NCBI GenBank assembly: GCA_036925085.1
Contig: JAUPFP010000052.1
Location: 558,001 to 622,000, forward strand
Direction of reading: 5' to 3'
Source of the DNA: Brachycybe producta
Lineage: Eukaryota; Arthropoda; Diplopoda; Playtdesmida; Andrognathidae
DNA length: 64,000 nt
The position numbers and the translations under genes are program-made. The notes beneath the pieces are model-generated. The model ran no database searches, was not told where the DNA came from, and saw only the letters and a list, made by a program, of their open reading frames with translations. The first letter of the stretch is position 1, and each line of letters starts with the position of its first letter. This document shows positions 11,497 to 52,119 of the stretch, piece by piece.

Positions 11497-11783
11497 TTTA
11501 ATTATTCTGTCTTTAAGAAGCAAAATTAAGTGAAACTTGAAAGTCTAAAGACTAGAATTGTATCTCCATCACTTAAATAGGGATATTTTCAGTTATCTTT
11601 TAAAATAAACTTTTTATTGCTAAAAATGAAAAATGCATTGTCTGCTTAAAAATGAGTCCCTTTTCAAACTGTCATAAAAAGCTTATTTTAAAAGATAAAC
11701 ATGAAAATAGCCTTAAGTGAATGAGCTGCCCTTCTAGTTTCTAAAAAAAACTTTCAAGTTTATTAATTTTACACCTGAAAGAC
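11497..11783. mobile_element. A-family MITE
   Basis: TTATTCTGTCTTTAAGAAGC opens the left arm and ACCTGAAAGACG closes the right arm. Arms carry CTAGAA and CTTCTAGTTTCT. Confidence 0.75.
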
Positions 11784-20000: not shown

Positions 20001-22288
20001 GTCATCACCCAGCACAGGACTCGGATCTTACGGAACAGATTCTGAGCAATCTGATCCTCATCTAAACATATCGGAACAAGAATTTAACGAAACGGATTAA
20101 GGAGGGGGGCTTTATAGATCTTTTATTTTGTTTTTGTTCTCCTCAGATGGCGCCACTTCCTCCTTTAACCGCAGTTTATATTTTTCAAGCGAACGTTTTT
20201 CACGAGAAACATTACGAAAAAATTCAAAGTGTTTTAGAAACTAGAATAGTTGGTGATCATGCTAAAAGTTTTTTTTTTTTAATGATGATATCTTTCAAAA
20301 TAAACTTTTTAAGACAGTTTGAAAAAAAAAGGCCGAAAATAGTTTTTCAATAAATTTCAATGGAAAAACCACAAAAAAACGCGCCATTTTTCAAACTGAG
20401 CTATAAAATTGTTTATTTTGTAAGACATTGCAATGAAAAAAATTTTACCATAATTTTTTACCATTCTAGTTTTTAAAATAATTTGAATTTTTCATAATGT
20501 TTCTAAAAAAAACGTTTTTGCGTCCAAATTTTACAAAAAAAACTGCTATGGCTCCATAGCCATAGCAAGTAGCGCCATCTGGAGGGACACCAAAGCAAAA
20601 TATCTATTCAGCCACTGTAATCGACTTTAAAAAAAAGCACATTCCAGTAATTCCTCGATTTATTTAGCAATGTGACGTCATTTCCATATATAGAAATATA
20701 AGGAAGTGATGTCACAACACACCGATGAATAAAACAGGCATCTGTAGACAGCTTCAGAATTTCTTTGGCTCCGCCCTTTTATGAGCGTCATCAATTTCTA
20801 ATTGGGTCTGATGCCACACATGCTCCGCCCCTTTTTAATTTCTAATTGGTTGATGATATAAAAGGGCGGAGCCAAAGAAATTCTGAAGCTGTCCACAGAT
20901 GCCTGTGATGGATAAATCGATGAATAACGAAGATTCTTTCGACGATTCTTCATCGATTTCATCGGCCACACAGGCAATTAGAAATCGGAACGAACAGAAG
21001 TTGGCTCCGCCCCTTTTTATGACGACCGGCAACTTCTAATTGGTTTGTTGTGTAATTCGACGTTGAAAAGGGCGGATCATGTGACGTCAGACTACATAAC
21101 CAACCAATTAGAAGTTGCCGGTCGTCATAAAAAGGGCGGAGCCAATTTCTGTTCGTCCCGATTTCTAATTGCCTGTGTCAGTAGAGGGGAGGTCAAGTCT
21201 CCCCCCCTAAAGAGTAACGAATTTCACCTGTTTTTTTTCCCCACCCGTTCGATGGAAACCACCTGTTTCTGCGTATCAATTACACTTCATGACGTCATCA
21301 AAAAGACGCACGTGCGAAAGGGGAGCTCGTGTTCTACAGAGTTTAATTCTTTCTGGTCCACAAAATTAAACAGAAACTAGAAAATGTTTTAGAAAACTAG
21401 AAGGGTAGCTCAGCCATTTAAGGATCCATTTTTGCATGTTGATGATATCTTTCAAAATAAACTTTCAATAACACATTGAAAGTTTATTTTGAAAGATATC
21501 TCTAACATGAAAATAACTCGTTAAGTGATTGAATTACCCTTCTAGTTTCTAAAACACTGTTGTTTCTGTTTATTTTGCTCCTGAAAGACAGAATAAAGCG
21601 AAACTAGAAAGTCTTTTAGAAAAGAAAAAAAACTAGAAAGTCTTTTAGAAAAGAAAAAAAACTAGAAAGACTTTTAGAAAAAAAAAACTAGAAAGTCTTT
21701 TAGAAAAAAAAAAAAACTAGAAAGTCTTTTAGAAAAAAAAAAAACTAGAAAGTCTTTTAAAAACTAGAAAGTCTTTTAGAAAAAAAAACAACTAGAAAGT
21801 CTTTTAGAAAAAAACTAGAAGGGTAGATCAATCACTTCAGGCTATTTTCAATGTTGATATCTTTCAAAATAAACTTTATTTAGAACATTATTATTATAAC
21901 TATTTTAAACATAAAGTTAATTTTGAACGATATGTCAAACATGAAAATACCTTTAAGTGACTGGGTGAGTGACCTAACCCTTCTAGTTTCTAAAACACTA
22001 TTGTTTCTGCTTTGAATAATAATTTTTCTTTACTATTTTAAGTACAAGGATATCCGAAAATATGGTGGCTATACCGAATAATTGAAATCTTTCGGATATT
22101 CGAAGCTAATTGTAGTTCTGGCGGCCATTTTTAATAATGCACCTGATGCAATTTACATTAAAAAAGTCTTATTTGAACGATTTTTTTTTTGTTCTTGGCA
22201 CACTTTTTATTGTTAAGACTAGAAAAAGTGTATTTTATAATATTATAAAAAATATAAGTTCACCCTCTCTCTCTCTCTTTCTAGCTAT

Positions 22289-22321
<33 letters not shown>

Positions 22322-25300
22322 CTTCAATGAAGAAAAAAAAAAAGACCTGAAAATTGGTCCACTTTTTTCGTTTCCATTTTGCACCAACCCCCCCTTTACA
22401 CCTGCCCTGAAAATGCCTCCTGATTCTCCCTCTCTTTCTATTATATGAATGTAAATGAAGAATCATCTATTCATATTTTAATTTCTATCACGAAATGAAC
22501 CAATTTTTGTGAACAGAAATTAAAACCTCATCTAATTCTGTAATAATAGATGCGGGTTGAATGGTTATGTATCACATTTTGTGTGCAGGTGGTTTATTTA
22601 ACCAGTCATAATTATTATTAATATTATTATTATTATGGTGAAATATCATTCCAGTGTACAGGGTGTCACACTTAAAAGTGTCACTTCAACTGCCACTTCG
22701 CCATTTCACAGGCAATTAGAAAACGGGATGAACAGAAGTTGGCTCCGCCCTTTTTATGACGACCGGTAACTTCTAATTGGTTGGTTCTATAGTCTGACGT
22801 CACATGCTCCGGTCCTTTTCAACGTCGAACCACACAACAAACCAATTAGAAGTTGCCGGTCGTCATAAAAAGGGCGGAGCCAACTTGTGTTCATCCCGTT
22901 TTCTCTTTGATTATTCTGCTCTTCAGGTGCAGAAAATTAGAAAGTGTTTTAGAAACTAGAAGGGTATAAAGCTCAATCACTGTAAGGTATTTTCATGTTG
23001 ATATCTTTTAAAATAAACTTTTTATGTCAGTTTGAGAAATGACTCAACTGGAAGCAGACAAAATTATTTCATTTTTGTTCTACAAAACGTTCATTTTGAA
23101 AGATACCAACATGAAAATAGCCTGAATGATGGATCTACCCTTCTAGTTTCTAAAACACTTTCTAGTTTCTCTAAGCGTGAGCTGTTACTATTGTATACAA
23201 TGAGAACCTGTCATTTGAAAACATGGCGGCCATTTTTTATACTACAATTCGGCCATTTTTTATACTTCAATTCGGTCATTTCTACATACACTCCGGCCAT
23301 TTCTACCTACACTCCGGCCATTTCTACCTACACTCCGGCCATTTCTACCTACACTCCGGCCATTTCTATCTACAGTTCGGCCATTCATTAAAGGAAACCA
23401 CGAACTCCGCTACTGACTGTTAAGCGCGCCATCTAGTAGCTGTCATTAAGTTCAAAACTATAATTGAGACATTCAAATTGTTCAAGGTAGAAAAATTATG
23501 TTTGGCGGCCAAAATCGCGTGACACTTAAGCGAACTTCCGGTCAGAAGAAGAGGAAAAAGAAAAAAATATCGATTACGCGTGTCTAAAAAAGTAGACTAA
23601 TAAAAAAATGCTTCCCAGTAATCTTATATTTAGAACACACAGGTCTAAAAATCTCATATCAGCTGCAGGTTGATGAATGAAAATGATAAAACCAGACAGT
23701 GATCGATTAGTCACAGGTGGCGCCAAAATCGCATCCTACTTGTTGTGCCCCTAAATGTTCTTCTCACCCCTTGCTGTGAAAATATAAAATCCTGATAAGA
23801 CTAATAAAAAAAGGCAAATAGATGGATGGAGGAGGAGGGGGGAAAAAGGGTCCTACTGTGAAAAGTACAATTGATTCCGTGTGCTGCCCCCTACTGAGTA
23901 AAATGTACTACTTCTTTGCAGTTATTACACTCATTATTACTAAACCACACCAAAACAACGAATTAATCTTGTAATAATCAAAATAAAATCTGTGTTAATA
24001 ATCGAAATGAATGAGAAGAAACTTGATTTTTCTTTTAACTTGGAAATTATATCGCAATTTGTTTCGCTAAATTTACTACCAAAAGAGGCGCCACCGTCGC
24101 CACGCAACGGCAAATATGAACAATTGTCTCATAAATCAAAAAAAAAAAAAAAAAAGAGAAAAACGTGAGAAATTCCTGCTGTTAAAATTTATGTTTAAAA
24201 AAAACCGCAGAGAAAAATAATGAAAAAAATATAAACAAATTTTGTTAAAATACTAGAAAAATCAAAAGCAAAAAAATTTCACAGCCATTATTATCTTTCA
24301 AAATAAACCATTTATTGCTTTGTTTTTACTGTAGGTCTCTACTCCATTTTTTAAGAAAACAAATTTACCATTTATCTTGTGCGTGTAGCGTTAGATGGCG
24401 CCACTAGCCCCTCCTTCCATAGAAATGTACTGACTGACTTCTTTTTTTTTTTTGCACGTGGCCAAACTTTTAATTGCGTCATCGCTATTTCTCTACACGT
24501 GCTCTCTTTCTTCTCTTATATTGTGTTCTCAGGGGTAAGTTTGTCCACGTGCTCTGATAATTAAGGTTGTTTTGGACGCCTTTTTAGAGGCTAAAAGGGT
24601 GCATATACCATATCTAGCGGCCGATGTGTGTAAAACTGTGAACTTAACACTGTTTACCACGGATAGTACTTGACAAGCTGATTCATTAGATGTAAAAATC
24701 GTTTTTTTTTTTTTAAATGTGACTTAACACAGTTTACCTCCGAGGAACTAATAATGAAAATTTACCTATTAGGTCTATATATTCCTTTTACTCTTCTAGT
24801 TTCTAATAGATTTTCAGTTGAAATTCATTTACTAAACAGAAGAAATTCGAAATCGTTTTAAAGAAACCATTTAAAAAAAAAAGCATTGATGGAGCAATTT
24901 TCATCACTAGATTGTTCAAAATGAACTTTTATATCATATTTCTAGAACTTTAAAAGATATCAATTTTTTTTTACTGATTTACTCTTCTAGTTTCTAACAG
25001 TTTGAATTTGTTTCTTCACCTCTAATTAGAAGAAATCAAAAATACGTTAGAAGCTAGAAGAAATACTAGATCTTTCTTGAAAATATCGTTCAAAATGAAC
25101 TTTTATAAAAACTTTACTTGTTCCTTTTGTTTTACTTCTAAAATAAAATAATTCGGAATTCGTCAAAAAGTTTATTTTGAAAGATAACATCCATGAAATT
25201 TTTAAACCGCCATTTTATTTACTGATTTACTCTTCTAGTTTCTTTGTCGTTAATTAGAAGAAATCAAAAATACGTTAGAAACTTGAAGACCAGACCAATT

Positions 25301-28300: not shown

Positions 28301-31300
28301 CAAGGTTCTCCTTATTCCTCTTAAGGTTTTTTTTAAAGGTGTAGGACGGGGGCCTCTCAAACTGTAGGGCTCGAATTTTTATGCAATATCAAGTAAATGT
28401 TTCTCAACTTGTGGCCCTCGAGTGCCAATAGTGAAGTACCACCAATCCCATTTAAGATTAACCAACAACTGTTATTTTTTCATTAAAATATTTGGTTAGA
28501 GGCTAGAACTTTCTAGTTAACTGATAGTAACCAGACATATAGCCTCTAACCAACCTTTTATTAGAAAAAGTATAATTGCAGTTGCTCTAATGTTGATGAT
28601 TACTTCATAATTGGCACTTGAGGGCCACAAATTGAGAAACCATTGTTTGATTTTGCATAAAAATCCTGTCTTCACATGCAAAATTACGAGAAACTAGGAA
28701 AGTGTTTTATAAACTAGAAGGGTAACTGAATCCCACAGGGGTGTTTTTTTCTTAAGTTTGATATCGTATAAAATAAACTTTAAACAGACAATAATTTTAA
28801 ATTTTTGTCTATAAAAAGTTTATTTTGAAAGATAATTATAATATGTGAAAGTTAAATCACACTTAAATGAAGTCAATTACCTCCATAAGATCAGAGTGGC
28901 GCCATCTATAGACCACACTCAGCTATATGTGACAGAATGCTATGCGAGACACAAGAACTCGCAGTTGGGATACCTCTCAGTAAATAAAATTAGGCCACGC
29001 CCTTTATTATGGCGGCTGTTAATATTCTTTCAGGTCACCTGTTGTTGCATTCAAAAAAATCTGATGCAATTGAAGATTGAATATGAAAAATTGATGTTAT
29101 ATCAATAATCTTCAGATTTAACTCGCCTACACAATTTTATTGTCGTCATCATCATCATCTTCATCATCATGATATTTATTATTGAGGTTTATGAGTGGAT
29201 TGTAACCAAAAAAAAAATAACATATCCAATTTAGTTCACACAAAGCGCCCCCTATCGGCCTGTCTGTCACGAAATCACTATAATACTAAAATACTTCTCC
29301 TACACATTTTTTAATTATATTCATGTTCATTATAGATGTTTGTGTGGTTTATTAACAGAAATAGTATTTCGTTCACAAAAAGCGCCCCCTATCGGCCTAC
29401 CTCATGAAACCCGTATAATACTAAAATACATCTCTCCTACACATTTTTTAATTATATTCATGTTCATTACAGATGTTTGTGTGGTTTATTAACAGAAATA
29501 GTATTTCGTTCACAAAAAGCGCCCCCTATCGGCCTATCTGTCATGAAACCCATATAATACTAAAATACAACTCTCCTACACATTTTTTTAATTATATTTA
29601 TGTTCATTATAGATGTTTGGGTGGTTTATTAACAGAAAAGAATTACTATTTCGTTCACAGAAAGCGCCCCCTATCGGCCTGTCTGTCACGAAATCACTAT
29701 AATACTAAAATACATCTCTCCTACACATTTTTTAATTATATTCATGTTCATTACAGATGTTTGTGTGGTTTATTAACAGAAATAGTATTTCGTTCACAAA
29801 AAGCGCCCCCTATCGGCCTATCTGTCATGAAACCCATATAATACTAAAATACAACTCTCCTACACATTTTTTTAATTATATTTATGTTCATTATAGATGT
29901 TTGGGTGGTTTATTAACAGAAAAGAATTACTATTTCGTTCACAGAAAGCGCCCCCTATCGGCCTGTCTGTCACAAAACCACTATAATAGTAAAATACCTC
30001 TCTCCTACACATTTTTTAAAATTATATTTATGTTCATTATAGATGTTTGTATGGTTTATTAACAGAAAATACTATTTCGTTCACAAAAAGCGCCCCCTAT
30101 CGGCCTGTCTGTCATGAAACCACTATACTACATCTCTCCTACACATTTTTTTATTATATTTATGTTCATTATAGATGTTTATTCGTGGTTTATTAACAGA
30201 AAAAAAAAATACTATTTCGTTCACAAAAAGCGCCCCCTATCGGTCTGTCTGTCAAAACCACCACATACCATATAATTTTCTAAATTGAAACATGGATGAT
30301 TACTAGAATATATCATGAATAATAAAAAAAAAGATGAACCCCAATTTTAGTTCCTCCTTTTTTGTGAGGGAGGAGGGGGAGGAGGATTCATTCAAATCAA
30401 TAAAAAGAGACAAATTCACACAATTATAGTGTTTGAAATTGATCTCTTTTTTTGTAGACATTTTTAATGAAAAACATCCCCAAAAAAAAGAAGTTTTTTT
30501 TCTCTCTCCTAATTCCCATCATCAATTGTGATAAAAGTTTAAAAACTAGAATATAAAAAAATGGTTCCATTCATGAAAAAATGGTGGGGTTTTTTTGTTG
30601 GTTTTTATGAGAAAAATAAAATTAGCACCCAATTTTTTTTATTTAAATGAAAGTGCTTCTGAATTTGAAGTCAGTGTCCAATCATAATGGGAAAATAGAA
30701 TAGAGAGTGTGACACGCCCATCAACCTAACATTAGAATATAATGAATATTTTAAAACAGCAACAAAAAAAATACCTTTTGATTTTTCTTTCTCTCTCTCT
30801 CTCTCTGAGTTGACTTGTTGAGAGATTCATTCATTCAATTCATTCTTCATTCATACAATTCATTCATTGTCCACCACCCCACCCCCACCCCCTTAATCAC
30901 CATCATTATCATCATAACACAGGATATCCACAAATTCGGATAACTTTCTATTATATAAAGGTTTTTTGTTTAACTTTCGTTAAAAGTTTAAAAAAAAACT
31001 ATCTTCAAATTAAAATTACCTCAATTTAAAAGGTCTAAACCTCAGAGGTAAACTATGTTAAGTCACCAAAAGCCTAATACCTTGTACACACATGAGTTAA
31101 ATGAATTCAAATTAAATGTGTTTAGGTGAATTATTACGGAATCCAGTTAAGGACATAAATCAAATCAAAATTGACATTATTATTTTAAATTAAAATACTA
31201 AATCAATATTTGTCAATAGTTTATATATTTAAGTATTAACTCAATATTTTCAGATTATTAACTGAATAAATTGAATTCGACGACATAGTTTGTTTGTCCT

Positions 31301-34300
31301 TCACAGGGCTCTGTAGAACACGTTTATTATTTAAATGCATTTAAATTATCAGCTGTGTACTAGGTATAAGTGATTAAAGCTACCCTTCTAGTTTCTAAAA
31401 CACATTCTAGTTTTTCTTCATTTTTTTCAATAAAAAATAAATATTTAATAAAATGAGCTGTTCATAAACCACCGTAAAAAACCGTTAAAATTAAATTTCT
31501 TTGCAAACAACGTAATTATTTGAGTAAAGTTAATTAATTATTAACTTTATTAATTTATTAACTGAAATAATTACGTTGTTTTGCAAAGAAATTTAATTTT
31601 CTAGTTTTTTTCAATAAAAATTAAGAAAAGTGTGCCAAGGTGAAAAAAATAAAAGAAGATTATTTTGGCTGACGGATTTTTAAATTTCACTTTAAAATCT
31701 TTTAAACTTCACCTTTTTAGATTTGAAAACATTTCAAAATTCATTACGTTTCTTCCTTCATTTTTTGACAACAAAAAAAAAAACGCAAAGAAATTAATAT
31801 TAAATGAGTTAGGATATATTTATGATATATTTATGATAATGTCCATTATTTGTCAACGAGGTTAAAATTCATAATTATTATTATTATTATTACGATGTCT
31901 CCCCCCCCCCTCCATTCTAACTATGTAATCTAATAAACATGGCGTCAGGTTTCCAAAATACGCCATAAAACGCCTACTTATTATTGAATTTAACAGCTGA
32001 GAAAATAAAACAAAATGGCCGCCATTTTAGGCATAATCTCAAACAGGCAATTAGAAAAAGGGATGAACCGAAGTCGGCTCCGCCCTTTTTTATGACGACC
32101 AGCAACTTCTAATTGGTTTGTTGTGTGTAAACCTGTGCGCCGCCGGGCGAAACCGCAGCCGCCGGTGTTTTTGAAGCAAAAAACGCCGCCGCTCACCGCT
32201 TGTACTTTTTTTAAAAAACCCGCCGCCACTCGCCGCCGGTGTATGACTGGCGGCCGCCGAATTCAAATTTGTTTTGGTTGGTTTTGTTTCAAAAACTGCC
32301 ATAGGAATGAAATGATACCATATTCGATATTTATCGATTTCAATTTATATCGATAATTACCACATTCAATATATCGATAATTCCATATATATACACTCGC
32401 CCGCCGCCGCCGATCAATATGCTACGGCGCACAAGTCTAGTTGTGTGGTTCGACGTTGAAAAAGAGCGGAGCATATGACGTCAGACACTACATAACCAAC
32501 CAAATTAGAAGTTGCCGGTCGTCATAAAAAGGACGGAGCCAACTTCTGTTTGTCCCGATTTCTAATTGTCGGTAGAGACGTCTGTCATAAAAACGAAGAC
32601 AATTAGAAAACGAGACAAACAGCAGTTGGCTCCGCCCTTTTTATGACGACCGGCAACTTCTAATTGGTTGGTTATGTAGTGTCTGACGTCACATGCTCTC
32701 CGCCTTTTTCAACGTCGAACCACACAACAAACCAATTAGAAGTTGACGGTCGTCATAAAAAGGGGCGGAGCCAACTTCAGTTCGTCCCAATTTCTAATTG
32801 CCTGTCTACAATGGCGCCATCTGGGAGGACGAATACAAAATATGTATTTATGAAGCCACCTTTACTATTCTAGTTTCTAATAAACTTTTGAATTTCACCT
32901 TGAGGCTAATATTTTTAAAGAAAAACAAACCTGAGAGCCGTTAATTTAGTTCAAATTTCGTCCTTCGTATTCAGCGACAGTTTTTTTCTATTTAATAATT
33001 CTGTATTCGTTTTGTAATTTTTGTTTACAGTAATTTATGACAAAAAAAACAAGAAAAATTATGATGAAGATGCGACAAAAAACGAAATTCGTGACTAGAA
33101 TAATCAAAACTAATAAATATAAAAAGAAGCGAGAAAAAACAATACCAAAATACCTCTCCAGCCCCCCCCCCCTTTTTTCTCCTAAATTCTATAAGATAAG
33201 TTTTCGTTTTTTTTTTGTTGCTAAAATCCCTAAAAATTGCAATAAAAACTAAACTAGTTTAAAATCAAATCTGAAGTTATTTATTACCGGATTTATTTAT
33301 GGATATTTTTCTCAAAAATATTATATAATCGAGATGAAAACCCAAGTTTACTCAGGTATTTTTAGTTCTTTTAATTAAAAATCCGGATCATCTTCTATTT
33401 CTAATCTAAAAAAAGCTAAATTAGCTTTCAATTTTAGCATTCAATAAATCAAAGAGACTAGAAAGGAAAAATAACTGCGCATCCGGGCAACCGACCATGA
33501 ACACAGGCATCTGTAGGCACAGCCCGTTAGAAATAGGTGAAAACTTCAGTTGGCTCCGCCCTTTTTTATGACGACAGGAAACTTCTAATTGGCTGGTTAT
33601 GAAGTCTGACGTCACATGCTCCGCCCTTTTCAACGTCAGACTACATAACCAGCCAATTAGAAGATGCCGTTAGAAATAGGTGAAAACTTCAGTTGGCTCC
33701 GCCCTTTTTTATGACGACAGGAAACTTCTAATTGGCTGGTTATGAAGTCTGACGTCACATGCTCCGCCCTTTTCAACGTCGAACCACACAACAAACCAAT
33801 TGGAAGTTGCCGGTCGTCATAACAAGTACAGAGCCAACTGAAGTTCTGACCTATTTCTAACAACCTGTTCTGTAGACAGCTTCAGAATTTATTTGGCTCC
33901 GCCCCTTTTATGAGCGTAGTCAATTTCTAATTGGTTTGTTACTGGGTCTGATGTCACACATGCTCCGCCCTTTTCAATTTCTAATTGGTTTATATTTGGT
34001 CTGACGATCATAAAAGGGCGGAGCCACAGAAATGCTGAAGCTGTCTACAGATGCCTGTGTTAATGGACGCGCCGGCGCATGCGCGCCGACAACATAAAAC
34101 CTTTTTTTTTCTCGGTTCCTGATCGAACTTTTAAACTCTTTACTAGTCGTTCATTTTTTTCATTCTTTAGCCTTAAAATCCATTCCTTATGTTAAGTCTT
34201 TCAGTCCGTTCCTGATGAGATTTTAAACTTTATTCCTGATCTAGCCCTTCCAGTCCCTCTTTACTGTTCCTGATCATACCTTTTCATTCCATCTCTGATC

Positions 34301-36464
34301 TAACCCTCCTAAAATTTATTTCATTCCTATACCAACCTAGGTTCCTAGGAAAGATCTTTCAAAAGGACAGGCAATTAGAAAACGGGACAAACAGAAGTTG
34401 GCTCCGCCCCTTTTTATGACGATCGGCAACATCGAACTACACAACAAACCAATTAGAAGTTGCCAGTCGTCATAAAAAGGGCGGAGCCAACTTATGTTCA
34501 TCCCGTTTTCTAATTAGCTGTTTCGAAAGATCATTATTCCGAAAAAAAAAAAAAAAAAAAACACACACAAGCAATCAGTTGCAAGTGGCGCCCTCTAACA
34601 ACTCCTTAACCTCTTTTAAATCTCGTTTTCGTCTTCTTTTAACGTAAATTATAAATTAAAAACCCATTTGACAAATGATAAGAAAAAATCCAAACAAAAA
34701 TAGTAAAAGAAAGCTAATTATTAATTCAGACAACGAAATAACGAAAAAGATAGAAAGAAAGAAAGAAAAACACGTGACCCATTACGGAATGGTACCTGAA
34801 CACGTGACCATTGTCAAGGGTTTTAGCCCTGAAATATTTTATCGGAGAAAAAACTTGTCTTTTTTTAATCTCTTGACATTGGTGGGGCCCGGGCCCCCCT
34901 CCCTTCTATATATAAAAATTATGTAAGTAAATTGTTTGTCATTTGTTTACTAAACAAATTCCAAGTAAAAGCTTTTAATTTCTAAGCATCTGCTTAATGA
35001 TACTAAATGGTACCAAACTTGTGCAATTTAGCACTTTGTGTTTAGCACTTTCGCAACAAAAAAAACCTGTCAATTCAAATGACTCGCAGCCGCCTGTCTG
35101 TGACTTAACACAGTTTACTTCTGAGAAACCTGAAAACTGAAACCTTAAGGTTGTTTTAAACCTTTTAAAAATGATTAATTATCATTTCTGTCTTTCAGAA
35201 GAGAAAAGTGTTTTAAAAACTAGAAGGGTAGCAAGCAACCCCCTCTTAAGGTGGCTTTATAAATATTTATTTTGTTTTTGTCCTCCCAGATGGCGCCACT
35301 GTTATTTAGAAGGTCTCTTCTCGTCCCCGAAATCCGCGGTTTTGAGAAAAAATTTCTATTTTTCAAGCGAACGTTTTTCAGAAAAAAATTCAAAGCTGTT
35401 TTAAAAACTAGAATAGTTGGTAATAATATTAAAAGTTTTTTTTTCAATGATGATATCTTTCAAAATAAACTTTTTATGACAAGTTTCATAAAGACCGAAA
35501 ATAGTTTTTTCATGAAATTTCAATGTAAAAACCAAAAAAACCCGGGGTCATTTTTCAAACTGAACTATGAAATTGTATATTTTTTAAGATATTGTCATGA
35601 AAAATTGCCATATTCTTTTACCATTCTAGTTTTGAAAACTATTTAAATTGTTTCATAATGTTGTTTCTAAAAAAAAACGTTCGCTTGACATTTTTGCGTC
35701 CAAATTTGACAAAAAAAAATCGTCTATGAAACTTAGAACAACAGCCGCTGCAGTGACGCCATCTGGAGAGACATAAAAGCAAAATAAATATCTATAAAGC
35801 CACCCTAAGGCTATTTTCATGTTGATATTCTTTTAAAATAAGCTTTTTATGTCAGTTTGAAAAATGACGCAACTTATTTTTCGGTTCATAAAAAGTTTAT
35901 TTTGAAAGATATCACTCACAACACGAAAATACAATTAATTGAATTACCCTTCTAGTTTCTAAAACACTTTCAAAATTTCTCTTATATATCGCAATGGACT
36001 GCTAATCAACATATGGTTTTTATCGTGTGTCTGTGTGAAATGGTGACGTCATTTTGTATTTTTTATAACAAGTCAATATTAAATTTTAAAAGGTGTCAAA
36101 ATAAACGATTTTAAACACAAAACAATTATTATTTACCTTTATGTTCATGAAATTTTAATGGAACTTCCGGTCCTTTAGCATCGTCCATATCGAAGTGATC
36201 ATGAGGGTCGTGTAGTGAATTGGTGGGTCCCTGAGTCCCTTGTAGCAACGGTGACCCACTTCCGACTTCATTCAATTCGTCGTGACCAATGAAAGAAGGG
36301 GAGGAGGAGGAGCCAACGAGAGACCTCTCGTAATTGGTCATATTGAGCAAAACGTAGGCAAAACTAAAGCCGAAAGTGATGCCCACTGCGAGGGTCAATA
36401 TAAACGTACGACCCAAATGACCCACAGGTCCAGACGACCCACCTCCAGAACTAGACCAAGTCAT
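16757..36464 (-). CDS. C1GALT1: C1GALT1, core 1 beta-1,3-galactosyltransferase
   Basis: This Golgi type II membrane enzyme transfers galactose from UDP-Gal to GalNAc-alpha-Ser/Thr, making core 1 (T antigen). Coding exons 36137-36464, 19388-20061 and 16757-17092 join in phase to 445 aa (human 363). Order: short cytosolic N-terminus, membrane anchor about residues 19-41, a Ser/Pro/His/Asp-rich stem, then the GT31 catalytic domain. That domain shows [13 protein letters not shown], the metal-binding DDD at about 204-206, [23 protein letters not shown] and [11 protein letters not shown]. The extra length is stem plus an acidic C-terminal tail of about 70 residues. Intron 1 is 16 kb and almost wholly repetitive, while the coding exons are intact. 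It lies on the same strand as a GALNT gene, which performs the preceding pathway step. Confidence 0.95.
17350..17460. repeat. ACCGGTTC-rich palindromic repeat
   Basis: Contains CTACTCGGTTCG, CCAGTTCCAGTAATTACTGG and AACCGGTTCTACTGGTTCC. A related copy lies at 58.16-58.41 kb. Confidence 0.6.
18310..19030. repeat. Tandem array, units about 140-180 bp
   Basis: Four to five units each contain GAACCCTGTTCTGAGGCTAC (one reads GTTTAGAGAGTTC), TTGAAGTTCAAG, TTCTTGTATTT, AACTTGAAGCCTC and CCTGTTTTAT. Units differ by small indels. Confidence 0.75.
19388..20061 (-). CDS. C1GALT1: C1GALT1 exon 2: main catalytic domain
   Basis: A 674-bp exon coding for 224 full codons of the GT31 domain. It contains [20 protein letters not shown], the [20 protein letters not shown] region and the [10 protein letters not shown] segment. 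It ends at PSKE before a GTGAGG donor. Its G+C content is visibly higher than that of the surrounding repeats. Confidence 0.95.
20106..20615. mobile_element. C-family foldback (copy 1)
   Basis: The arms are GGCTTTATAGA...AGATGGCGCC on the left and AGCGCCATCT...TCTATTCAGCC on the right. The inner part contains GCGAACGTTTTTC and AAACTAGAATAGTTGGTGAT. The CTCF-like core is present in both arms (20143-20152 and 20571-20580). Confidence 0.8.
20734..20906. mobile_element. B-family foldback, short variant
   Basis: ACAGGCATCTGTAGACAGC on the left and GCTGTCCACAGATGCCTGT on the right. Flanks GATGAATAAA and GATGGATAAA may be a 10-bp target duplication with one mismatch. Confidence 0.8.
20970..21176. 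mobile_element. B-family foldback, full length
   Basis: ACAGGCAATTAGAAATCGG ... CCGATTTCTAATTGCCTGT (207 bp). Arms include GGCTCCGCCC and its complement. The centre holds GTGACGTCAGAC. Confidence 0.85.
21362..22012. mobile_element. Composite A-family cassette, inverted copy
   Basis: Reverse-complement counterpart of 3928-4550: A-family foldback, minisatellite of AACTAGAAAGTCTTTTAGAA (21.60-21.80 kb), second A-family foldback. Confidence 0.8.
22270..22322. repeat. (CT)n microsatellite
   Basis: A near-pure CT run interrupted twice. Confidence 0.9.
22708..22903. mobile_element. B-family foldback, right tip missing
   Basis: The left tip ACAGGCAATTAGAAAACGGG is intact. The right arm stops at CCCGTTTTCT and abuts an A-family MITE. 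Confidence 0.8.
22906..23180. mobile_element. A-family MITE abutting a B element
   Basis: TTATTCTGCTCTTCAGGTGC then TTTTAGAAACTAGAAGGGTA on the left, and GATCTACCCTTCTAGTTTCT on the right. Confidence 0.75.
23244..23390. repeat. 21-bp minisatellite
   Basis: About six to seven units of GGCCATTTCTACCTACACTCC, the outer ones diverged. Confidence 0.85.
24780..25620. repeat. Diverged A-like arms (CTTCTAGTTTCTAA)
   Basis: At least four pairs of TTACTCTTCTAGTTTCT and TTAGAAACTAGAA-type words separated by CAAAATGAACTTTTAT, consistent with several short foldbacks end to end. Confidence 0.6.
26397..27054. mobile_element. TIR element with perfect 8-bp target duplication
   Basis: AGGAAATT flanks the element on both sides (26397-26404 and 27047-27054). 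The ends are ACGGAGCCCTGCAAAGGAC and GTCCTTTACAGGGCTCCGT, inverted with one mismatch over 19 bp. The 642-bp body contains a 22-23 bp minisatellite and an inner foldback (26824-26943). No transposase frame. An 8-bp duplication fits hAT or P-type elements. Confidence 0.88.
26440..26815. repeat. 22-23 bp minisatellite CTCGACAGTTCCGGACTTTTATT
   Basis: About 16 units in two length classes: 23 bp with CCGGACTT at first, then 22 bp with CCGACTT. The long open frame through it is a product of the repeat. Confidence 0.9.
27178..27710. mobile_element. Two A-family MITEs
   Basis: Arms at 27.19-27.45 and 27.50-27.70 kb with TTAGAAACTAGAAGAGTA and its complement, and inner TTTATTTTGAA(A/C)GATA. Confidence 0.7.
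28367..28671. mobile_element. D-family foldback (copy 2)
   Basis: AGGGCTCGAATTTTTATGC ... GCATAAAAATCCTGTCT. The interior carries GGCCCTCGAGTGCC, CCAGACATATAGCCTCTAACC and an inverted partner. Confidence 0.8.
29225..30260. repeat. About 140-bp tandem array, eight CTCF-like cores
   Basis: Eight units, each with GTGGTTTATTAACAGAAA, TTTCGTTCACA and AGCGCCCCCTATCGG. The last word begins near 29244, 29381, 29518, 29663, 29802, 29947, 30089 and 30229. Its complement holds AGGGGGCGCT, the canonical CTCF core. Units 3-4 and 5-6 form a 284-bp higher-order repeat. Confidence 0.9.
31136..31314. mobile_element. Short relative of the 26.4-kb TIR element
   Basis: ACGGAATCCAGTTAAGGACA on the left and TGTCCTTCACAGGGCTCTGT on the right. 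179 bp, AT-rich inside, no clear target duplication. Confidence 0.65.
32043..32566. mobile_element. B-family foldback split by a nested element
   Basis: The left arm 32043-32127 and right arm 32440-32566 together make one B element. They are separated by a GC-rich insertion. Confidence 0.85.
32120..32447. mobile_element. Nested GC-rich hAT-like element with 8-bp target duplication
   Basis: The target GTTGTGTG occurs at 32120-32127 and 32440-32447. The 312-bp insert has ends TAAACCTGTGCGCCG and CGGCGCACAAGTCTA, inverted with two mismatches over 15. GCCGCC-rich flanks surround an AT-rich core with ATATCGATA words. Confidence 0.88.
32598..32805. mobile_element. B-family foldback
   Basis: GACAATTAGAAAACGAGAC ... 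AATTTCTAATTGCCTGT, with GGCTCCGCCC arms and GTCTGACGTCAC in the loop. Confidence 0.82.
32813..32880. mobile_element. Solo terminal repeat of the C family
   Basis: GGCGCCATCTGGGAGGAC then ATTTATGAAGCCACC, next to the B element. No partner arm nearby. Confidence 0.65.
33499..34058. mobile_element. Rearranged cluster of B-family elements
   Basis: It begins ACAGGCATCTGTAGGC and ends CTACAGATGCCTGT. Inside, a segment of about 142 bp starting CGTTAGAAATAGGTGAAAAC is duplicated in tandem (33526 and 33668). A short-variant B element follows (from about 33866). Confidence 0.75.
34367..34521. mobile_element. B-family foldback, internally deleted
   Basis: ACAGGCAATTAGAAAACGGG ... CCCGTTTTCTAATTAGCTGT, 155 bp. 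The usual TGACGTCA loop is lost and the arms nearly meet. Confidence 0.8.
35190..35960. mobile_element. C-family foldback nested inside an A-family MITE
   Basis: The A left arm (TTCTGTCTTTCAG ... CTAGAAGGGTAG) is interrupted at CTCTTAAG by a C element (35249-35804). The A element resumes at CTAAGGCTATTTTCATG. The C ends TGGCTTTATAAAT and TATAAAGCCA are inverted. Confidence 0.82.
36137..36464 (-). CDS. C1GALT1: C1GALT1 exon 1: cytosolic tail, membrane anchor and stem
   Basis: It starts at ATG 36462-36464 with a Gly/Ser-rich head, then a single hydrophobic helix [20 protein letters not shown] and an acidic stem. It ends in phase 1 at a GTAAAT donor. A possible splice acceptor (CTTAG) about 25 bp 5' of the ATG suggests an upstream non-coding exon. 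Confidence 0.88.
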
Positions 36465-42334: not shown

Positions 42335-42760
42335 GTTAGTAAAAAAAATGCTAAAAGTGAGTGAAGAGAACTGTCTGCTTTTGAAGCTAGAATGTCATCC
42401 CCGTTTGTTTGTAAACTTTGTATGCCTCTTTAAGCCTAACGTAACGTAAGCAGTAAGTACAGTTTGTGCCATCTATGCGCCACAATCAGTTTTGGCATGA
42501 ACTGCTCCATAGGAAGAGATCTTACTTGAGTTACCTCTGTATATCAGCTCCATGTTAGAAAAAAAAATGCCAAAAATGAGTGAATAATCGTCTGCTTTTT
42601 GAAGCTAGAAAAATAAATACATCTTGCTTAAAAGGTCATCCATTTTTTCATAACAACCCTACTATAATTAAAGCACTAAGTATAGTTTGCGCCATCTACT
42701 GGCCAGAATCAGCGTTGTCACGAAATGATTTACCTCTATCATTAGTCTTTCCGCTCCCTG
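42335..42760. repeat. Direct duplication, about 210 bp, with CTCF-like cores
   Basis: Both copies read AAAAATGC(T/C)AAAA(G/A)TGAGTGAA, GTCTGCTTTT and GAAGCTAGAA, then a GCCATCTA core and an ATCAG tail. The second core, GCGCCATCTACTGG (42689-42702), fits the 14-base CTCF consensus. Confidence 0.7.
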
Positions 42761-42984
42761 TGTCATTACAGTTGAGAAAATTACTTACGTGGCGCCATCT
42801 AGTGAGCAAACACATAGTTAATCTTTCGAAATCAAGATTCTCACCCTTTATCGTCGTTTTTCTTATGTTTTCGATCGAAAATCGACTCGTAACTCACTCA
42901 GATGATACTTTTCTATAGACTGAAACGTATAATACGTAATTTAACTGTAATTAAGGTAATTAAAAAGAGTTAATTACAGGTATT

Positions 42985-43086: not shown

Positions 43087-43165
43087 GTTTTCTTCTTCTC
43101 ATTTGTAGATAGGAAGACCTTATTATCATCTTTGCAATTCGATCGAACTGAAAGATAAGCACAAG

Positions 43166-43936
43166 ATGGCGAAGAGTAAATACGAATACGTGAAGACGTT
43201 CGAATGCGAAGACCGTTGTCTTCCGAACACTTGGCTCGTAGTGCGTCTGGACGGTAAAGGTTTCCATCGATTCTCAACCGAACACGGTTTTGCAAAACCA
43301 AACGACGAGAGAGCGTTGAAACTGATGAACAAAGCAGCGATTTCAGTTCTGAAAGACTTTACCGAGGTTTGCATCGCTTACGGACAGAGCGACGAATACA
43401 GTTTTGTCTTTTGCAGGAATACGCAGCTGCACAACCGACGTGGAATGAAGATTCTGACGAATGTCTGCAGTTGTTTTACGAGCAATTACGTCTTTCATTG
43501 GTCCGAGTTCTTTCCCGATACGAAACTTCGATATCCGCCTTCGTTCGACGGTCGAATCGTTCTTTATCCGACCGACGAGAACCTAAAAGATTATCTCAGT
43601 TGGCGTCAAGCCGATTGTCACATTAATAATCTGTATAATACGACGTTTTGGAGTTTGGTTCAGAAAGGAGGACTTACACCGGTCGAAGCCGAGAAGAGAT
43701 TGAGCGGGACTGTTTCAGCCGACAAGAACGAGATTCTCTTTTCGCAGTTCGGAGTCAATTACAATAACGAGGATCAGTTGTTTCGTAAGGGAACGACTCT
43801 GGTTAGAAAGAAAATCGCACCGGAAATGAAGAAAAATCGACGGAAAGATCAGAATCTTCAGCCGGAAATCTTAGTTCTTAATGTTGATATTATTAAAGAT
43901 GATTTCTGGAAATCTAATCCGGAAATTCTAGAATAA
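43166..43936 (+). CDS. THG1L: THG1L, tRNA-His guanylyltransferase
   Basis: This enzyme adds G-1 to the 5' end of tRNA-His by 3'-5' polymerisation, which HisRS needs for recognition. The single open frame codes for 256 aa starting MAKSKYEYVKTFE. Metal-binding residues D29 (VVRLDGKGFHRF) and D76/E77 (AYGQSDEYSF) sit at the same positions as in the human enzyme. The HINNLYNT motif, SWRQADCHI and GTVSADKNEILF are also present. No mitochondrial presequence is seen. Unlike every other full gene here it has no intron. It is convergent with INSIG. The start context is CACAAGATGG. Three CACGTG boxes and a TGACGTCA lie within 185 bp upstream. Confidence 0.97.
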   Translation: MAKSKYEYVKTFECEDRCLPNTWLVVRLDGKGFHRFSTEHGFAKPNDERALKLMNKAAISVLKDFTEVCIAYGQSDEYSFVFCRNTQLHNRRGMKILTNVCSCFTSNYVFHWSEFFPDTKLRYPPSFDGRIVLYPTDENLKDYLSWRQADCHINNLYNTTFWSLVQKGGLTPVEAEKRLSGTVSADKNEILFSQFGVNYNNEDQLFRKGTTLVRKKIAPEMKKNRRKDQNLQPEILVLNVDIIKDDFWKSNPEILE

Positions 43937-44030: not shown

Positions 44031-44710
44031 AATCACAACAAACTATGAATTGATTTTTGGTTCAACTTTTTCTAAGCATATATTCAATTTGTTAGAAACT
44101 AGAATAGTAAAATGTGCTAAAAGTATATTAAAATATCTTTCAAAATTAACTTTCTATTGCAGCTTGAAAATGGTTACGCTTGTTTTAAAGTGTAAATTTC
44201 AAAACCTTCCTGAAACTCATGATTATTCTGTCTTTTAGACGCAAAACTAAGAGAAACTTCCAAGTGTTTAAAAACTAGAAAGGTAGCTCAATCACTTAAA
44301 GGCATTTTCATGTTAGCTATCTTTCAAAATAAGCTTTTCATACGCAAATTTAAGTGTTTTTTCATATTCGGTTTTTCCATTGACATTTCATGAAAACCTA
44401 TTTTCGGTCTTTTTCAAACTCTCATAAAAGTTTATTTTGAAAGATATCATCATAGAAAAAAACCTTTTAGCATTATCACCAACTATTCTAGTTTCTAAAA
44501 CACTTTTGAATTTTTTTTCGTAATGTTTCTTCTGAAAAACGTTCGCTTGAAAAACATTAATTTTCTCAAAACCGCAGGAACTCCTATAGAACAGTCGCGC
44601 CATCTGGGAAGACAAAAACAAAATAAATACCTATAAAGCCACCTTAAATAAAAAGTTTAATTTTAAAAGATATTACTGTAAACTTTCAAACGTTAGTTTT
44701 TTTTTAAAAT

Positions 44711-49772: not shown

Positions 49773-52119
49773 ATGGCGGCCTCCATGTCAATATCAATTT
49801 TAAAGCCAATTTGTTCGCATTTTTCATCGTTTTCCAGCCGTAATTTCCTTACATCAAGGTCACAACAATGGAGTCGTCAACTGTTGGCTCCCTCTGCGTG
49901 GCGTTGCATGCCTCAGTCCTCATCCGCACGTGGAATGGCGGGACACAGCAAGTGGCAGAACATCCGGCACGTGAAGGCCGCGACGGACTTGGCGCGCGCA
50001 AAGACCTTCATGAAACTGGCGCGAATGATGAAGGCTGCAATCAGAGGTGGTGGTCTATGACGTCACTATGGTCTTTTTTATCCCCCCCCCTCCATTTACT
50101 GACATCCTTCTGTTTTCCTATTGGTTGTAATGCAAAAGGGGGAGGAGTAAAGTGATAGGGGCGTGGTTTTAATCCATTTGACACACCCTCACGCTTTACC
50201 CCATCTTATTGGTTATTCTAATAAAAGGGGCGTGGTTGAAGCGGGCTGACGCGTCACGCGAGTAAGGCAGTTACCTTTCTAGTTTTTAACGCACTTTCAA
50301 CTACTTCCTCCGTCCTTCAGAAACAGAAGTGTTTTAAAAACTAGAAGGGTAGCTCTCTCGCTCAAGTGGTATTTTCATGTTGTTTATCTTTCAAAATAAA
50401 CTTTTTATTTTGAAACTGTTTAAAAATGTATAATTTGAAAGATAATCAACATGAAAATACCATTGAAGTGATAGAGCTACCCTTCTAGTTTCTAAAACAC
50501 ATTTAAGTTTCTCGTAAGTTCGAAGGTCATTTTTTTTCCTTTTCTAATTTCTAAATAGATGGCAACAGCAATGATCCTAAATTCAATACGAAACTAGCTC
50601 ATGCTGTGGATCAAGCGAGGCGAGTGAGCATGCCAACATCGAAAATAGAAAGTATATTGAAGGAAAAGGAGGTACGAAACAGCCTTAAGGACCCTCCCCC
50701 TTTCTGAATGACGTGGGTCTCAAAAAATGGTTCTTTTCAGGTTTCGAAGGAACTTCTCGTACCTTTCACCCTAGAAGCCAAAGGACCTGGAGGTTGTTTC
50801 TTGATTTTAGAAGGTTTAACGGACAACTTCAGGCGAACTCGACAAACGGCCAAAAGTTACATGAATAAAGTTGGGTAAGAAAAGTAATGGCGCCGATGAA
50901 ACGCGCTTCAATTCGGCACTTAATCAGTTTGGAAGTTCCGTTCTATTATGTCGTTTACGAACAGAGGGTTCATGTTATTGGAGAACGGACCGAAACACTT
51001 GTTTGATCATAAGGGTATCTTATGCGTGGATCCGATCAAAACAGGTCTCAACCTGGAAAAAGCGGTCGAAATAGCGATCGAAGTCGGAGCGGAAGATGTG
51101 ATCCAAGTCACGGAAGAAGATGGAACGAATATTTTACAGGTGGAGTACGGTTCAATGTCCCAGTAAATCGAAAAGAAAAAGTGTTGGAACAAATTACTTT
51201 TCAGATTAATAACAATCACTCTTATTCCTCGTTTAAGGTGGCTTTATTTTGTTTTTGTCCTCCCAGATGGCGCCACTGTAGTGGCTATTCTGCTCTATAG
51301 GAAGTCTCTGAGAAAATTCGCATTTTTCATGCGAACGTTTTTCAGGAGAAACATTACAAAAAAATTCAAAGTGTTTTAGAAACTAGAACAGTTGGTGATA
51401 ATGCTAAAAGTTTTTTAAATGATATCTTTCAAAATAAACTTTTTATGGCAATTTGAAAAAAAAAGGCGAAAATAGTTTTTCGTGAAATTTCAATGAAAAA
51501 TCCCTTAAAAAACGGGTCATTTTTCAAACTGAACTATAAAATTGTTTATTTTTTAAGATATTGCCATGAAATTTTTTCAACATAATCTTTTACCCTTCTA
51601 GTTTTTTTCATAATTGTTTCAAAAAAATGTTCGTTTGACATTTTTGCATCTGAACTTTACAAACGTCTATGGAGCTCAGCATTAGTCACTACAGTGGCGC
51701 CATTCGGTGGTACAAAAGCAAAATGAATATCTATAGAGCCACCATAAGTATTTGAATTACTTACCAATTACAAATCAGATGGTAGAAATAAAGGTGACGT
51801 CATCATTTGAGAACAAAAATAGTTTAAAATAGAAAGCAAAAGTAATTTAAATTAATTACTTTTAGCAAATGCACTGAAATTGAAATTTCGGCCATTTTTT
51901 TTTGTTTTTCCCCTGTAGTTCTCTTGCGAACCGAACGATTTCTACACGGTGAGGAAGCAACTGACCGAAAAAGGGTTCGAACTCTTGAGTTCGGAAGTGA
52001 CGTACATCGCAAACACAAAAGTAGACCTGGACGAAGATCAACTCGCACGCGTTGACAGATTAAACGATTTTCTCGACGAAGATCAAGATATAATGAAATG
52101 TTACGATAACATTAACTAA
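49773..52119 (+). CDS. TACO1: TACO1, mitochondrial translational activator (YebC family)
   Basis: TACO1 is a mitochondrial YebC-family protein needed for efficient translation of COX1. Exons 49773-50046, 50559-50671, 50741-50874, 50965-51139 and 51919-52119 join in phase to 298 aa (human 297). The first 50 or so residues are Ser/Arg/Gln-rich without acidic residues, as in a mitochondrial presequence. The conserved AGHSKWQNIRH follows at about 56-66. Later marks are AHAVDQARRVSMPTSKIES, EAKGPGGCFLILEGL, HLFDHKGIL, AIEVGAEDV and an acidic C-terminus ending YDNIN. Intron 1 contains an A-family MITE and intron 4 a complete C-family foldback element. The gene is divergent from INSIG and convergent with GALNT. 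Confidence 0.96.
50325..50512. mobile_element. A-family MITE in TACO1 intron 1
   Basis: AGTGTTTTAAAAACTAGAAG ... CTTCTAGTTTCTAAAACACA, with inner CTTTCAAAATAAAC and TTTGAAAGATAA. Confidence 0.75.
51239..51741. mobile_element. C-family foldback in TACO1 intron 4
   Basis: TGGCTTTATTTTG ... CTATAGAGCCA. The left arm holds AGATGGCGCC (51265-51274). The right arm core is mutated to GGCGCCATTC (51695-51704). Inner GCGAACGTTTTTCAGGAG and AAACTAGAACAGTTGGTGAT are family words. Confidence 0.82.

Follow-up and report, generated by a model that had tools for sequence, protein, structure and literature searches.

A TTAA-target MITE family of Brachycybe producta with inverted CTCF-like core words in its terminal repeats

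Introduction

B2 and other CTCF-carrying SINEs of mammals are reported to bring a CTCF-like word to many places (PMC3368268). In Drosophila, the transposon ISX spreads sites of the dosage compensation complex, which are reported to be functional (PMC4384637), and in ctenophores, the description of loop anchors bound by CTEP1/2 ties loop architecture to transposable elements outside vertebrates (PMC12221973). Among DNA transposons, the Kolobok/T2-MITEs of Xenopus are described as combining a TTAA target, RR terminal bases, MITE structure and high copy number (PMC6004289).

Here we describe family C, a repeat found in a window of 64,000 nucleotides (the whole stretch of DNA that was analysed) belonging to a genome assembly of 295 Mb in 442 contigs. 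It shares with the T2-MITEs the four features named above, and like the mammalian SINEs it brings a CTCF-like word to many places. In contrast to B2, it is a DNA transposon whose copies each have an inverted pair of cores, known here from sequence alone. It could resemble ISX as an invertebrate transposon spreading sites for a chromatin complex, but the ISX sites are not CTCF sites, and the ctenophore anchors involve other proteins and another motif. Among the matches listed in the open-licence literature, judged by titles and abstract openings, we found no description of an invertebrate DNA transposon that spreads CTCF sites.

Structure and target site of family C

We read family C as a non-autonomous DNA transposon, namely a MITE that targets TTAA, whose arms are partly foldback-like and whose terminal inverted repeats measure ~65 bp. 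The window holds three complete copies of 507-555 bp, a half copy ending at 44643 and a solo end (Table 1). Their comparison within the window demonstrates that they are mutually homologous with inverted ends, and the homology spans most of the element length. The MITE nature and the inverted pair of cores proposed in the initial annotation hold. The copies and the half copy had also been recognized there, with boundaries that are corrected in Table 1; the solo end occupies 32808-32860 and not 32813-32880. The outer 54 bp of the arms are 87% identical, and the inner inverted match, to another copy, is 67% identical. In the one copy inspected (35250-35804), a 127-aa stop-to-stop frame matches nothing in Pfam at E values up to 1. 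The family is short, has terminal inverted repeats and reaches high copy number, with the strict tip TTAAGGTGGCNNNATANATATTTATTTTG occurring 732 times genome-wide and its reversed control 0 times. As diverged copies fall outside that count, the family is larger than the 732 strict tips.

Table 1. Positions in the window of family C copies, their target sites and cores, and of the family D core
Feature	Position	Strand	Remarks
Family C copy, complete	35250..35804	+	sequence comparison
Left TTAA target site of the 35250 copy	35246..35249	.	right counterpart 35805-35808 is CTAA
Core AGATGGCGCC, exact, end A of the 35250-35804 copy	35288..35297	+	motif search
Core AGATGGCGTC, 1 mismatch, end B of the 35250-35804 copy	35755..35764	-	motif search
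Family C copy	20101..20616	+	flanked by TTAA (left, 20097-20100) and GTAA (right, 20617-20620); degenerate tip on the left (GGAGGGGGGC)
Core AGATGGCGCC, exact, in the 20101-20616 copy	20145..20154	+	motif search
Core AGATGGCGCT in the 20101-20616 copy	20571..20580	-	motif search
Family C copy	51237..51743	+	left TTAA 51233-51236, right ATAA 51744-51747; left arm ~10 bp short
Core AGATGGCGCC, exact, in the 51237-51743 copy	51265..51274	+	motif search
Core GAATGGCGCC in the 51237-51743 copy	51696..51705	-	motif search
Half copy of family C, one end	44367..44643	-	TTAA 44644-44647
Core AGATGGCGCG in the half copy	44596..44605	-	motif search
Solo end of family C	32808..32860	-	next bases TTTA
Core AGATGGCGCC, exact, in the solo end	32813..32822	-	motif search
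Core in the left end of a family D copy	24393..24402	+	right end not recognised in aligned stretch

The true tip of family C is TTAA followed by GGTGGCTTTATA (beginning GGTGGC), which is degenerate in the copy at 20101, and the longer tip consensus reads TTAA followed by GGTGGCTTTATA(A/G)ATATTTATTTTG(T/C)TTTTGTCC. The word TGGCTTTATA, originally taken for the end of the element, is present, but it lies inside this longer tip and is not the terminus. The two ends, referred to as A (for example CTCCCAGATGGCGCC) and B (for example CCACCAGATGGCGCC), are related but distinct, A continuing with CACTGCAGTGGCTATTATGTTCTATAGGAGGTCTCT and B with CACTGCAGTGGCTAATGCTATGCTCCATAGACG.

Of the 24 paired copies, among which two have an end in common, 9 keep TTAA at both tips. 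The complete window copies have it intact on the left only, and on the right read CTAA, GTAA or ATAA (0 of 3 keep both sides). Among the matches listed, the joined flanks of family C match uninterrupted repeats bearing a single TTAA; for the 35250-35804 copy, such empty sites are found at 11746-11594 and 1465-1283. The TTAA pairs and the single-TTAA repeats together identify family C as a TTAA insertion with target-site duplication. Several copies are inserted at the TTAA of repeat F, which is much commoner than family C and which the interior of C resembles. Repeat F (GAAACTAGAAGGGTAGCTCAATCACTTAAGG...TTTTCATGTTGATATC) is very abundant across the window, for example at 1283-1465 and 11594-11746, and its TTAA is a recurrent target of family C.

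Superfamily and candidate transposases

We then compared family C with the two TTAA-targeting superfamilies. piggyBac shares the TTAA target, and the genome holds piggyBac transposase matches with long open frames. The piggyBac tip, target included, reads TTAACCC. A piggyBac-type tip TTAACAC is also given in PMC13405395, and the family C tip, TTAAGGTGGC, has neither CC nor CA after TTAA. An open-frame piggyBac copy (L052) has the apparent end TTAACCCTTTAAAGGCC (one end read), unlike TTAAGGTGGC of family C. The right end of piggyBat, as given in PMC13405395, also holds AAGATGGCGC ~37 bases inside, which is a coincidence. As for Kolobok, its defining features in PMC6004289 are the TTAA target and RR terminal bases, and both are found here, the terminal bases being GG in family C and GA in all three right tips of family D (see below). 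The RR tip fits Kolobok better than piggyBac, although the T2 tip given in the same source, AGGRR, is unlike that of family C, and no Kolobok transposase is tied to family C.

No transposase with C-type ends was found when C ends were compared with piggyBac positions (by eye, first 100 of 732) and with the 106 THAP matches of the genome. On the piggyBac side, no strict C end on contig C1 within those 100 adjoined an open piggyBac frame. One THAP match lies 2.2 kb from a family C end (C9:2906060 and C9:2908297). It was rejected as an autonomous partner, as no second C end occurs in the 1.05 kb beyond, within a stretch that leaves out 2906094-2907199 and the sequence past 2909700; THAP is the sole Pfam match of this frame above cut-off.

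Four piggyBac transposase matches (C1:6141124, C1:12714159, C1:13384735, and C26:525118) have equal scores and 620-aa open frames, which suggests recent activity. The region of C1 at ~8-16 Mb has few strict C ends, few CCANYAGATGGCGC sites and many piggyBac matches, and is perhaps pericentromeric.

A second family with inverted cores

A second MITE family, D, also bears inverted cores; its copies are the one at window position 24393 and those at loci L016, L020, and L045. Three of its copies have inverted AGATGGCGCC near both ends, and the window copy has it at one end. The right tip is TTAAGAGG in 3 of 3 copies. On the left, all four copies share AGATGGCGCCACT with family C and three of the four share TTATTTTG, and the right end, compared by eye, has little in common with C beyond AGATGGCGCC. 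Among the first 100 of 4658 AGATGGCGCC occurrences, 13 adjacent pairs lie within 700 bp, 8 of them convergent, 2 divergent and 3 in the same direction. Seven of the eight convergent pairs are spaced by 215-304 or 459-488 bp, matching the prediction for C and D elements.

Presence and decay of the core word

Allowing 2 mismatches, CCAGATGGCGCC has 18 matches in the window against 0.47 expected. Eight are family C ends and ten lie elsewhere, one of the ten in family D. The eight ends carry the 12-mer exactly (3), with 1 mismatch (4) or with 2 mismatches (1), and AGATGGCGCC is exact in four of them. The core lies 26-42 bp inside the corrected tips rather than the 40-50 bp proposed before. The core is present in the family C consensus of both ends, in the form of the word ATGGCGCCACT, as the initial annotation had anticipated.

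The consensus loci had been picked with a core-bearing query and are biased for conservation, so we used tip-only searches and whole-genome pattern counts instead. Among 35 ends found by tip alone, 13 keep AGATGGCGCC, namely 7 of the 16 ends in the window and a 200 kb systematic sample, and 6 of the 19 second ends in loci fetched by the core-bearing query. These 35 derive from 37 non-query tip hits after dropping L049 at 1040 (inside an element) and L007 at 2100 (an arm of a query copy); the alignment row of L044 is stitched over a gap, and its 1-mismatch core is only apparent. Genome-wide, 577 ends have ATTTATTTTGNTTTTGTCC. Of these, 127 carry ATGGCGCC at a distance of 1-8 bases inward, 97 have GATGGCGCC when a single spacing is required, and 206 keep 11 further tip letters. 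The tip and core counts compare unequal patterns (11 letters at fixed spacing and 8 letters at a spacing of 1-8, respectively), and with 127 against 206 they indicate that the core is a consensus feature decaying with the copies and not better protected than the tip.

We then inspected conservation along 32 of the 35 ends, which were retained by an alignment score that includes the core. Mismatches amount to 10% in the core columns and 19% in the 12 columns that follow (p = 0.056). For the block ATGGCGCCACT, chosen post hoc, they amount to 6%, against 24% in the 11 bases after it (p = 4e-5). The best-conserved block in this post hoc view is ATGGCGCCACT and not the CTCF-side bases; of the 32 ends, 66% retain the A that opens the core and 84% the G that follows it.

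With moderate confidence, we favor the reading that family C is a TTAA MITE whose core word is part of the terminal repeat and is kept mainly by transposition, while intact copies are possible weak CTCF sites. Family C would be moved in trans by a putative TTAA transposase, of Kolobok type by the RR tip, and ATGGCGCCACT would be kept mainly as part of the terminal repeat that the transposase must recognize. We infer this recognition, as no transposase with C-type ends came to light. As the word is compatible with the host CTCF core, intact copies could serve as weak CTCF sites, most of all through B ends that read CCACCAGATGGCGCC, but many copies are partial matches. This reading is supported by the TTAA target sites, the 732 strict tips and the core in the consensus of both ends, by the better preservation of the tip than of the core, by the low mismatch of the ATGGCGCCACT block, and by the rarity of the upstream CTCF part (see below). 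Against it, a common host factor would equally explain why the right end of family D resembles C in hardly anything but AGATGGCGCC, and the 10-base core differs from the next 12 bases only at the above p value, in ends retained by a score that includes the core.

Host CTCF and the full motif

A CTCF orthologue is encoded at C16:1697722-1699045, found as three exon matches that are 44-71% identical to human by exon. The best PDB match of its fingers 1-6 is CTCF. The contact residues (-1, 2, 3, 6) of ZF3-5 are identical to those of human (TGER, ESKR, and DYKR), for which the human finger list includes two overlapping false fingers, its hZF4-6 being fingers 3-5; those of ZF6 and ZF7 are similar. 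Genome-wide, AGATGGCGC occurs 8842 times against 1854 for the reversed word, AGATGGCGCC 4658 times against 312, and CCANYAGATGGCGC 1144 times against 0. The prefix CCANY precedes AGATGGCGC 24 times more often than expected from base composition, with part of the CCANY/CCANYAGATGGCGC sites sitting in repeats and hence not independent (for example, pairs 72-73 bp apart). The conserved fingers, the motif excess and the CCANY excess together indicate that AGATGGCGC is probably the host CTCF core. The functional fly CTCF site ATGTCAGAGGGCGCT, as given in PMC7880997, fits AGANGGCGCY. No printed fly motif was located in PMC4528719, and a literature search for AGATGGCGC as a word returned no title about CTCF motifs among the matches listed.

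The window and sample contain 23 AGATGGCGC sites, 10 in family C, 3 in family D and 10 elsewhere. CANY directly precedes the word in 1 of 10 C sites, 0 of 3 D sites and 5 of 10 others (C and D versus others, Fisher's p = 0.052 two-sided, 0.035 one-sided). Over the 349 kb compared, 8 of the 10 other sites have no second copy spanning the core. Hence, family C mostly offers the core without the upstream CCA part that a full motif has; exceptions are B ends such as CCACCAGATGGCGCC at L033, and single B ends elsewhere do carry CCA. The initial claim that each insertion delivers two CTCF-like sites is too strong for copies that keep AGATGGCGCC in 13 of 35 ends and CANY in 1 of 10 sites, and whose best-conserved block, in the post hoc view, is ATGGCGCCACT and not the CTCF side.

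Dispersal of CTCF sites by family C is possible, yet we regard it as doubtful that the family disperses real ones, with host CTCF binding the inverted cores of intact copies and turning them into insulators or loop anchors. The finger contacts shared with human CTCF, the fit of the fly site and the CCANYAGATGGCGC and CCANY excesses, partly in repeats, argue for it, as do the full-motif sites found no more than 700 bp from a strict C end (4 of the 100 listed, all on C1), and the share of families C and D in the AGATGGCGCC words of the window and sample (11 of 14). The near lack of CANY in C and D sites and the faster decay of the core than of the tip argue against it. A bolder version appears unlikely, namely that C and D are the main carriers of the host CTCF core word, that every insertion brings a convergent pair of CTCF sites spaced by 200-500 bp, and that DNA transposons have in this way rewired the architecture that depends on CTCF outside vertebrates. 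Echinoderm domains are reported to be independent of motif orientation (PMC13317027). If intact copies were bound, family C would be a DNA transposon that supplies CTCF sites in convergent pairs, and its many natural insertions, some perhaps still polymorphic, could reveal whether the orientation and pairing of CTCF sites are important outside vertebrates. If they are not bound, the family warns against equating a short core in a transposon end with a CTCF site.

It is improbable that the relevant binder is another host factor reading ATGGC, such as a YY1/Pho-like protein: the best-kept bases are indeed ATGGCGCCACT and not the CTCF-side AG, but the CCANY excess beside the same core points to CTCF. 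An origin of the core words by chance or base composition is very improbable: the reversed 9-mer is itself not rare, but the 18 window matches and the AGATGGCGCC excess contradict such an origin.

Other CTCF-like words

A tandem array at window positions 29229-30261 repeats a 145-bp unit ~7 times. The unit consensus contains AGCGCCCCCTATCGG, and the reverse strand of the array reads AGGGGGCGCT in 8 occurrences. As AGGGGGCGCT fits the CTCF core AGRKGGCGCY, the array may be a cluster of CTCF-like sites. At 42688-42800, the CTCF-like words CACTAGATGGCGCC and CCAGTAGATGGCGC lie ~100 bp apart; the distance to the open frame downstream of them (43109-43936), which has Thg1 domains, is ~310-420 bp. 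On C1, direct-orientation CCAATAGATGGCGC pairs 72-73 bp apart occur at 11633285/11633358, 13876438/13876510, and 16137587/16137659, with further pairs at 18031581/18031653 and 18315791/18315863; these apparently represent another repeat carrying the full CTCF-like word. Dense open-frame arrays matching CTCF-type C2H2 zinc fingers are found at C33:1.89-2.11 Mb, with dozens of matches, and at C68:96-128 kb.
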